From Tatumella morbirosei (GTDB lineage: Bacteria; Pseudomonadota; Gammaproteobacteria; Enterobacterales; Enterobacteriaceae), in the NCBI RefSeq assembly GCF_000757425.2, contig NZ_JPKR02000003.1, positions 1,612,001 to 1,676,000 on the forward strand: a stretch of 64,000 bases of DNA, in the 5' to 3' direction. This document shows, in pieces, positions 17,184 to 19,436 of this stretch. The translations under genes and the position numbers were made by a program. Within the stretch, counting starts at the first letter, position 1. Each line of letters opens with the position of its first letter. Below the pieces are notes generated by a model. It was not told the origin of the DNA, searched no databases, and saw nothing but the letters and a program-made list of their open reading frames with translations.

Positions 17184-17738
17184 TTACTTATTTGTCATGG
17201 CGAGCAATTTCTGCCGGTAATAGTGCCAGTCGAATGCCTCTCCCGGGTCCGTCTTCCTGCCGGGAGCGATATCACTGTGCCCGGTAACATGTTCACTTTT
17301 AATCGGATAACAATTCATCAGGGTACGGGTTAGCTGACAGAGAGCCTGATACTGCTGTTCGGTATAGGGAAGAGTATCGGTTCCTTCCAGTTCGATACCA
17401 ACAGAGAAATCATTACAATTACTTAGCCCCTGATAACATGACTGTCCGGCATGCCAGGCCCGTTTATCAAAAGCCACATACTGGACAATTTCTCCGTCAC
17501 GGCGAATAAGACAATGCGCGGCGACTTTGAGCTCAGCAATATCTTTGAAATAGGGGTCGGCTTGTGGGTCAAGGCAGCCGGTAAAAAGCTGATCAATCCA
17601 GGGCCCGCCGAACTTTCCTGGCGGAAGGCTGATATTATGCACCACCAGTAACCAGGGGCTGGTATCTTCAGGACGCTCATTAAAATGTTCTGAAGGTACC
17701 TTTCTTGCCTCTGTCAGCCAGCCTGATTCTATTTTCAT
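17184..17738 (-). CDS. ampD: 1,6-anhydro-N-acetylmuramyl-L-alanine amidase
   Basis: AmpD is the cytoplasmic zinc amidase that removes the stem peptide from anhydromuropeptides during wall recycling; its loss raises AmpC beta-lactamase through AmpR. The 184-residue protein keeps the zinc ligands of the amidase_2 family, H34 (VVHNISLPPG), H154 and D164 (GHSDIAPGRKTDPG), and the catalytic E116 (GIELEGTDT). No signal peptide is present, which separates it from the envelope amidases AmiD and AmpDh. ampE follows. Confidence 0.96.
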   Translation of the reverse strand: MKIESGWLTEARKVPSEHFNERPEDTSPWLLVVHNISLPPGKFGGPWIDQLFTGCLDPQADPYFKDIAELKVAAHCLIRRDGEIVQYVAFDKRAWHAGQSCYQGLSNCNDFSVGIELEGTDTLPYTEQQYQALCQLTRTLMNCYPIKSEHVTGHSDIAPGRKTDPGEAFDWHYYRQKLLAMTNK

Positions 17739-17944
17739 ACCTGTGCCGTTTCCCCGCCTGGATTTGAGAATATCATAAATACTGGCATGATATTGTTTCC
17801 TGATAATACAGACCAGTATTCTGTGTTTATTGTGGTTATTCCGATGCTTAACCTGATACTCAACTGGTTACTCTATTCAACTGGTGGTGTGTTGCGCTTC
17901 AGGCTACAGTATTTATTCCTGCCATAAAAGGAGCAAACCACCTT

Positions 17945-18823
17945 ATGCCGATTAGCCATTACGCCGCAGAACACTGCCGCCAACTTTTACTGGAACGAAT
18001 TCAGACAGAAATTCCTGAGTCTGTTCAGTTAGCACTGAAAAATGCCCACCCCGCTCCTACCCTGTCGGGAGTTAAAGCCGGACACGCCGTTATTGTCTGC
18101 AAAGAAACCGGTATTTTCTGCGGGAAAGCCTGGGCGGATGAGGTATTCAGCCAGTTGGATACCAGCATCAATGTGCAATGGCAGGTCAATGATGCGGATA
18201 CCATTCAGGCCGGGCAAACACTGGCAACCGTCAGCGGCCCTGCGTCAGCATTACTGGTGGCAGAGAGTGTGGTTGTCCATTTTTTACAAAATCTTTCCGG
18301 CGTTGCCACACAAATTAATGCATACGCTCAACAGTTTGTCGGGTCGGGAACCCGGTTAATCGACAGTCTGGGGAATACTCCCGGCACTAACAGTCTGAAA
18401 TTTGCCCTGCTAACAGGGACGAAACAGTTTGGATGCATGGACTTTAGCGACATGATTCCGCTGCGGGAAAATCATATTATTGCCTGTGGTTCAGTATTAG
18501 AGGCGGTAGAAAATGCCCGCTGGATAGACCCGGATCGGCCAGTTGAAATTGAAGTGACGTCTCAACAACAGTTGTCAGAAGCAATCAGTGCCGAGGCTAA
18601 CTTTATTTTGCTTAACGGCTTTACTCCGGCAGAGATCACTACCGCCGTCACCTTTACCAGCAAAAACTCAGCACAAACACATCTGGAAGTCGGGGGGAAT
18701 ATTGACGGGGGTGATCTTGCCGCACTGCTGCAGACGGGTATCGGTTATGTCGCTGCAGATGCCCTGATTCGCCACCAGAGACCTCTGAGTATATCGCTGC
18801 AATTTAAGACCTCCGATCGCTAA
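17945..18823 (+). CDS. nadC: NadC-like protein with altered active site
   Basis: By position (between ampD and ppdD) and overall pattern this is nadC, quinolinate phosphoribosyltransferase, which makes nicotinate mononucleotide for NAD synthesis. It is 292 residues (E. coli 297) and aligns end to end: IFCGKAWADEVF, FLQNLSGVA, ENHIIACGSV, PVEIEV, HLEVGGNI. The functional motifs are largely gone. The GERTALNF Arg is S108, DTRKT reads DSLGN (140-144), the GG..NHR stretch reads GTKQFGC (158-164), IKENH reads LRENH (173-177), LDN reads LNG (223-225), and the E-D-x-G loop near residue 35 is shortened by about 8. The first E of EVE is kept (E201). The frame is intact, so this is not an obvious pseudogene. 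The enzyme may be inactive or may do something else; ModD-type paralogy is possible but not shown. Confidence 0.72.
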   Translation: MPISHYAAEHCRQLLLERIQTEIPESVQLALKNAHPAPTLSGVKAGHAVIVCKETGIFCGKAWADEVFSQLDTSINVQWQVNDADTIQAGQTLATVSGPASALLVAESVVVHFLQNLSGVATQINAYAQQFVGSGTRLIDSLGNTPGTNSLKFALLTGTKQFGCMDFSDMIPLRENHIIACGSVLEAVENARWIDPDRPVEIEVTSQQQLSEAISAEANFILLNGFTPAEITTAVTFTSKNSAQTHLEVGGNIDGGDLAALLQTGIGYVAADALIRHQRPLSISLQFKTSDR

Positions 18824-18989
18824 TTACAGGTTAACACCCCAAAAAGATTTTAAGCCATCCCGCACGATTCATTGCAACGACGTAATATTACGACAATCTC
18901 GCAGAGTCCTTTCTCAGCGTGATTGTCGAGCGCATGAGTTGCTGGTGTGACCACGTTATTCTCCTGACTCATTGCTTAAGGAGGACAGC

Positions 18990-19436
18990 ATGCATAACCA
19001 GCAAGGATTTACGCTCACAGAACTGATGATCGTTATTGCTATCATCGCCATCCTCAGTGCCATTGGATTACCGGCTTATCAGAACTACCTGCAGAAGGCC
19101 GCTATCACCGATATGTTGCAACTGATGATGCCTTATAAAACGGCGATTGAACTCTGTGCCATGGAGACCGGGAGCGTACAAAACTGTAATGCAGAAACCT
19201 ATGGTATTCCCGGCGAAAAGGGTTCCCGTTACACTGAAAAAATAACCATCAGTAACGGGCAGATCACCCTGAATGGGCTCGATACACTGAAAGGCCTGCG
19301 TGTCCAACTTTTCCCGCGCTGGGATCCTAAAAAGGGTGATTTGCAGTGGTACAAGAAATGCCAGAGTGAAAATCGCTTATTACTGAATAACTGTCAGAGC
19401 CAGTTCAGATTCAGCGATCAGTCGGAGGTTTTATGA
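18990..19436 (+). CDS. ppdD: Type IV prepilin-like protein PpdD
   Basis: PpdD is the major type IV pilin of enterobacteria. The protein has 148 residues with a short leader MHNQQG, the prepilin peptidase cleavage site G/F, Glu at mature position 5 (FTLTE) and the hydrophobic helix LMIVIAIIAILSAIGLPAY. Two late Cys (KCQSENRL..NCQS) probably form the C-terminal disulfide. The ATG at 18990 has AAGGAGG at a spacing of 5; a TTG 18 bases earlier in the same frame overlaps that site and is rejected. Its stop overlaps hofB by four bases. The first half is conserved with E. coli, the second half diverges. Confidence 0.9.
   Translation: MHNQQGFTLTELMIVIAIIAILSAIGLPAYQNYLQKAAITDMLQLMMPYKTAIELCAMETGSVQNCNAETYGIPGEKGSRYTEKITISNGQITLNGLDTLKGLRVQLFPRWDPKKGDLQWYKKCQSENRLLLNNCQSQFRFSDQSEVL

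Follow-up and report, generated by a model that had tools for sequence, protein, structure and literature searches.

Here, we propose that the nadC-derived gene of Tatumella encodes what is probably a pseudoenzyme, which would have lost its activity after the de novo pathway of NAD synthesis and been kept by selection as a folded, non-catalytic protein. The proposal is based on the two features by which a pseudoenzyme is recognised, the loss of catalytic residues and purifying selection, both of which are found here. The gene was studied in a stretch of 64,000 nucleotides (the window), in which it occupies positions 17945..18823 of the forward strand, and in related genomes. It would represent a natural case in which the other genes of a pathway are gone and the last enzyme, apparently dead, has been kept by selection. 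It gives a clear before and after of constraint along a protein, and it hints at a hidden function of a textbook enzyme of NAD synthesis.

A NadC homologue at the ancestral locus

The gene is an open frame of 292 amino acids with an ATG start and no internal stop. An earlier note, made from the letters of the window, had described it as a NadC homologue over its whole length, free of frameshifts and stops and lying between ampD and ppdD, and this description holds throughout. Both Pfam domains are recognised in the window protein (QRPTase_C, E-value 9.9e-24 and 84.4 bits against a gathering cut-off of 23.1; QRPTase_N, 2.8e-16 and 59.9 bits against a cut-off of 27), and the best solved relative by sequence, the QAPRTase 1qap, covers residues 5-287. 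The two domains together with the predicted fold (mean pLDDT 67) place the protein in the QRPTase superfamily, which has the type II PRTase fold. The divergent neighbour ampD (17184..17738, reverse strand) marks the ancestral nadC locus, and ppdD (18987..19436, forward strand) follows downstream. The gene order pdhR, aroP, ampE, ampD, nadC, ppdD, hofB, hofC is shared by the window, the five other Tatumella genomes and two relatives (G024 and G025), and the frame at this locus is open in all six Tatumella genomes.

Within its own genome (4.41 Mb in 6 contigs, rated 100% complete), the window frame is the sole QRPTase match, no second one being found over the cut-off. The most divergent Tatumella genome, G001, has one extra weak QRPTase match, at 19.8 bits and hence below the cut-off of 23.1.

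Structure prediction from an alignment of three sequences gave a model with a pLDDT of only 47. A second model, built from five sequences of which two were ordinary NadCs, one complete and the other partial, reached a mean pLDDT of 67.4, with residues 1-42 and 141-181 under 50. Compared with known structures, it matches QAPRTases (Z 16-21), and then nicotinate and nicotinamide phosphoribosyltransferases (Z of about 13-16). The second model thus supports the family fold, for which it is adequate, and is not one from which to read the pocket or the function.

Loss of the active site

The six Tatumella proteins were compared with 24 relatives carrying an ordinary NadC (all 24 non-Tatumella loci; 30 of the 45 homologue matches had loci), using the numbering of the reference L010, which matches 1qap. 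None of the six Tatumella proteins retains R118, R152, K153, H174, D235, G280 or K284, and five have lost K185, while R175 is lost in two and retained in four, and E214 is lost in three and retained in three. In the window protein, E214 is the sole survivor among R152, K153, H174, R175, K185, E214 and D235. Each substitution proposed in the earlier note was confirmed by the alignment, all on the forward strand: S108 (18266..18268) replaces the invariant Arg118 of GER; DSLGN at residues 140-144 (18362..18376) replaces DTRKT, which removes R152 and K153; GTKQFGC at 158-164 (18416..18436) replaces GGG.NHR and with it H174; R174 (18464..18466) replaces Lys185; and LNG at 223-225 (18611..18619) replaces LDN, which contains D235. 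The N-terminal loop is likewise shortened, as had been claimed, having 10 residues fewer than in ordinary NadC and no EDL.

The porcine enzyme with NaMN holds the nicotinate carboxylate through Arg138, His160, Arg161 and Lys171, the phosphate through Lys139, three glycines and other groups, and the ribose through Glu201 and Asp222 (PMC3633916). We mapped these contacts by motif onto R152, H174, R175, K185, K153, E214 and D235. Across the six Tatumella proteins the position of D235 reads N, N, R, H, Q and Q; the vacated positions differ between species, and so no common new residue has replaced the old ones. From the lost residues, the Tatumella protein is predicted to have no phosphoribosyltransferase activity. 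Among the columns that are invariant in ordinary NadC, 10 of 11 ligand contacts and 41 of 63 others are not fully kept in Tatumella, a difference that is not significant (Fisher P 0.16).

Tatumella has also acquired invariant residues of its own. At 13 positions, all six proteins share a residue that no more than 10% of ordinary NadCs carry. D166, P172, D195, R198, Q209 and P280 are examples, and of these D195 and R198 are absent from the ordinary NadCs compared. Set beside NadC as in 1qap, the Tatumella protein keeps near full-length homology, the ampD-ppdD locus, the predicted fold and the FCGK, NHIIACGS and EIEV motifs, but it is without most of the binding and catalytic residues, its catalytic segment is loosely constrained, and its genomes yielded neither nadA nor nadB.

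NAD synthesis in Tatumella

nadA was found in none of the six Tatumella genomes and is present in 20 of the 36 genomes searched. The search for nadB likewise gave nothing over the cut-off in the six; its hits there, near 335 bits, are frames of 588 amino acids with counterparts in many relatives, and are probably succinate dehydrogenase. pncB exceeds the cut-off in all six. With nadA not found, nadB below the cut-off and pncB present, NAD is predicted to be made from nicotinate, and Tatumella species are predicted from their genomes to be nicotinate auxotrophs. The same searches, with no second NadC over the cut-off, fit the expectation that the cell needs another NadC or takes up nicotinate or nicotinamide. 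Neither a NadC-derived protein nor auxotrophy of Tatumella was reported in the titles and abstract openings surveyed, those of papers mentioning Tatumella or Pantoea citrea included. Species moved from Pantoea to Tatumella may need nicotinic acid, a point on which nothing here relies.

We propose the following course of events. An ancestor of Tatumella would have lost the de novo pathway (nadA and nadB) and lived on nicotinate through pncB. A burst of change would then have deprived NadC of its activity as a quinolinate phosphoribosyltransferase, an order of losses that we infer, and the protein would have been fixed as a folded pseudoenzyme and retained by selection since.

Could the protein still be a quinolinate phosphoribosyltransferase, weak or of changed chemistry, fed by external quinolinate? 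Its predicted fold is retained, and orphan NadC proteins that salvage quinolinate are known in other bacteria. Yet this is highly improbable, since R152, H174, K153 and D235, which correspond by motif to carboxylate, phosphate and ribose contacts of the porcine enzyme (PMC3633916), are gone from all six proteins.

Selection since the loss

Identity to the window protein ranges from 83% (G005) down to 41-43% (43% being that of G001), and in the gene tree the six Tatumella sequences split from the other 14 with 100% support and a long stem. Pairwise codon fits to the two close pairs gave an omega of 0.174 (G000-G005; LR 95 against 1) and 0.164 (G003-G004; LR 87 against 1). Synonymous divergence of nadC in these pairs is 0.61 and 0.47, and that of seven neighbours in the same pairs 0.18-1.0. 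coaE, from the same neighbourhood, has omegas of 0.175 and 0.182 and is level with nadC, while the six other neighbours have 0.02-0.12. The omega table is without hofC of G002, which has a broken frame; aroP and guaC did not serve as yardsticks, and ppdD of G000-G002 gave an unbounded dS.

A codon branch model, fitted to 295 codons of 15 of the tree's 20 sequences, assigned an omega of 0.096 to the background of active NadC. The Tatumella stem has an omega of 0.744, which is indistinguishable from 1 (2dL 0.16), and the Tatumella crown 0.181, which is far from it (2dL 384.5). The stem differs from the background (2dL 11.2) and, by a 2dL of only 6.1, from the crown. Equality of crown and background is rejected (2dL 21.1); the crown value exceeds that of active NadC, and constraint is therefore weaker than on the enzyme. 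On its own, G001 has an omega of 0.185 (2dL 25.6 against 1). Because the long branches of this model are saturated for synonymous change, the two close pairs bear most of the weight.

In simulations, a neutral frame of 291 codons gained a mean of 8-9 stops at the divergence of the close pairs, and the probability of none was at most 0.0005 (2000 simulations each). The marks of a pseudogene, a dN/dS near 1 together with stops, were looked for within the genus and neither was seen: the crown omega is 0.18, and not one of the six frames contains a stop. The earlier note's impression of something unlike plain decay is thereby upheld. Of the two alternatives that it offered, retention for another purpose is supported by the omegas of 0.16-0.18, whereas the other, that catalysis was lost very recently, is refuted: all six species share the loss, down to 41-43% identity, and it therefore predates the genus.

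Plain decay would mean that nadC became useless once nadA and nadB were lost and that its frame has stayed open by luck. The pathway has indeed gone, a real stage of decay is seen in one relative (G080, with stops in nadC and in a nadA remnant), nadC was not found between ampD and ppdD in three others (G008, G017 and G039), and active NadC is under stronger constraint. Against this stand the omegas and their distance from neutrality, the frame that is open in six of six genomes although a neutral one would gain 8-12 stops over the same divergence, the low omega of even the most divergent member, G001, and the retention of upstream signals. We therefore regard plain decay as very unlikely.

A shift of constraint along the protein

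Regional omegas were estimated for nine segments, the values for active NadC coming from 7 sequences. The catalytic segment, residues 138-165, has the lowest omega of the nine in active NadC (0.012) and one of 0.240 in Tatumella. In Tatumella the lowest of the nine belongs instead to residues 166-206 (18440..18562, forward strand), at 0.064 against 0.035 in active NadC; here NHI.ACGS and ENARW.DPDRP are invariant in all six proteins at the letters shown, and in either close pair the 41 codons show nine silent changes and a single replacement. The N-terminal domain, residues 46-110 (18080..18274, forward strand), stays constrained, with omegas of 0.148 and 0.139 in Tatumella against 0.116 and 0.118 in active NadC. 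The C-terminal part, residues 251-292, is among the less constrained segments of the Tatumella protein (omega 0.23). Constraint has thus shifted along the protein and has not been uniformly relaxed.

A rival reading is that of a new enzyme, a barrel with a rebuilt active site around K152, D166, D169, N176, H177 and E201. These polar residues are invariant in six of six Tatumella proteins, D166 being new to the genus, and a fast stem followed by constraint fits neofunctionalisation. However, omega is comparatively high in residues 138-165 and 251-292, and species differ in what now occupies the vacated contact positions. A new catalytic role is unlikely on this evidence, though less so than plain decay or residual NadC activity.

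We favour a role by binding over a new catalytic role, with plain decay and residual NadC activity both being unlikely. By the logic of the TIM barrel, the DPDRP turn would lie on the face of the barrel opposite the old active site, and because it faces away from that site we propose a contact surface there, formed by the N-terminal domain and residues 166-206, with R192, D195 and R198 as its predicted patch. The protein would most likely act as a dimeric scaffold or as a regulatory partner.

Such an arrangement is known from HisZ, a pseudoenzyme retained as the regulatory partner of a related active enzyme, HisG. The Tatumella protein resembles this type in having lost its catalytic residues and kept its constraint, and in sharing the cell with PncB, an enzyme whose fold belongs to the same class. 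It differs in that it is the former enzyme of its pathway and has no active copy beside it, and in that its partner is only a candidate. PncB, the salvage enzyme, comes first among the candidates, although we think it improbable that it will prove to be the partner.

Relatives lacking nadA

Ten genomes outside Tatumella that lack nadA (G008, G010-G013, G015, G017, G020, G039 and G043) gave no NadC match, and six of them are of 2 Mb or less. These relatives manage without NadC, so the function of the Tatumella protein is not a general one.

When 198 genomes of the family were scanned, 124 had a NadC above the cut-off, two of them, G071 and G141, in a further disabled form. Like the Tatumella protein, both forms lie between ampD and ppdD as unbroken frames and have lost K153, D235, G280 and K284, in genomes where nadA was not found; unlike it, they still carry R118 and R152. 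The tree places G071 beside the ordinary NadC of G028 (support 92 for protein, 55 for nucleotide) and G141 with that of G025 (62 and 85). Their placement and the kept arginines indicate that these losses are separate in origin from that of Tatumella. The tip omegas, which mix the time before and after the loss, are 0.218 for G071, which differs from the background (2dL 11.3), and 0.156 for G141, which does not (2dL 1.55). Each genus is represented by one genome, and so selection after the loss is inseparable here from selection before it.

Twelve genomes were chosen for a check of nadA on account of a low, broken or missing NadC, which makes them no fair sample, and none has an intact nadA. 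In G079 (L087 and L088), NadC is interrupted near codon 197, its two pieces sitting at contig ends; R175 and K185 have been replaced, DTRKT and LDN survive, and nadA was not found in the genome. An early stage of loss or an insertion may account for this. In the 2.2-Mb genome G080 (L083, 2364-5737), ampD, ampE, nadC and guaC adjoin as broken pieces, which is ordinary decay. The hits of G111, G165 and G171 are all ModD-like, as judged from the alignment by eye, G027 and G195 have low-scoring NadC hits, and G068, G075 and G089 have none. With NadC absent or broken in the other relatives examined that lack nadA, loss or decay is its usual fate, to which Tatumella, G071 and G141 are the exceptions so far.

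A wider reading, which we hold as doubtful yet worth stating, is that the NadC of these enteric bacteria has a second job independent of catalysis, such that after loss of the NAD pathway catalysis has been shed in at least three lineages and the protein kept. In the same doubtful reading, Tatumella would have kept the protein long enough for it to become a regulatory or scaffold protein throughout the genus.

Annotation of disabled NadC proteins

The window protein scores 182.3 bits against the NadC equivalog TIGR00078, short of the curated cut-off of 198.4 (NCBIfam), as do the proteins of G003 (183.8), G004 (188.5) and G001 (144.2). Those of G005 (204.1), G002 (206.3), G071 (201.7) and G141 (about 220.4-220.5) exceed it. 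Four of the eight disabled NadC proteins scored thus clear the curated nadC cut-off, with the result that genome-based models would credit these bacteria with a reaction that is most likely lacking; the disabled nadC of G071, G141, G002 and G005 would be annotated as an active enzyme.

ModD (TIGR01334), a NadC paralogue of the same superfamily, is matched weakly, at 36.2 bits by the window protein and 31-53 bits by the other seven, all under its cut-off of 178.85. The Tatumella proteins score far closer to NadC, and the ModD-like frames of relatives, so named from alignments, have kept the TRK and GG..HR motifs.

Upstream region and neighbouring genes

Of the 44 bases that precede the start codon, 29 are identical in all six Tatumella genomes, with no gaps, and these include the ribosome-binding site and a possible -10 region. 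Among the five genomes other than G001, 33 of 44 bases are identical before nadC; the corresponding figures are 3 of 44 ahead of ppdD and 2 of 86 after nadC, both of them lowered by insertions and deletions because the counts are ungapped. The conserved blocks, all on the forward strand, are AACTGGTTACTCTATTCAACTGG (17862..17884), CAGGCTACAGTATTTATTCCTG (17900..17921), whose inner GGCTACAGTATTTA is identical in six of six and may be the -10 region, and the region of the ribosome-binding site, AAAGGAGCAAAC (17927..17938), of which AAAGGAGCAA is kept in all six. A simple promoter scan found nothing above shuffled sequences, and conservation further upstream may be partly that of ampD. The 21-base pattern CTGGTTACNCTATTCNNCTGG, derived from the first of these blocks, has no mismatches before nadC in five Tatumella genomes and two in G001. 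A search for a regulon of this pattern gave no sign of one: with at most 3 mismatches allowed, the six Tatumella genomes hold 1-4 further hits each, against 0-3 for a control with the pattern reversed.

A further rival is that selection acts on DNA or RNA within the gene, such as an overlapping signal of ppdD or ampD, and not on the protein. nadC does lie between two genes, and its upstream region may hold the ampD promoter. Synonymous divergence is nonetheless ordinary while amino-acid change is suppressed, codons 166-206 of each pair show nine silent changes to one replacement, and in G001 a stretch of 1666 bp parts nadC from ppdD. Selection on the nucleic acid is scarcely credible as the explanation, and the protein remains in our reading the object of selection.

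A tie to the pilus genes was also considered; it is unlikely, given that same spacing in G001 and the persistence of ppdD, hofB and hofC in G008, G017 and G039, which are without nadC at this locus.

The insert between nadC and ppdD of G001 (L049; about 1666 bp) contains an Hcp-like frame of 167 amino acids and frames of 177 and 118 amino acids, and presumably resembles a small cargo module of type VI secretion. In G002 (L050, 12796-13991), hofC is apparently frameshifted, tblastn matching it as two pieces that overlap but differ in frame, possibly through sequencing error, while ppdD and hofB beside it look whole. In G003 (L051, 14093-14570), hofC is followed by three tandem extra copies of about its last 45 residues.
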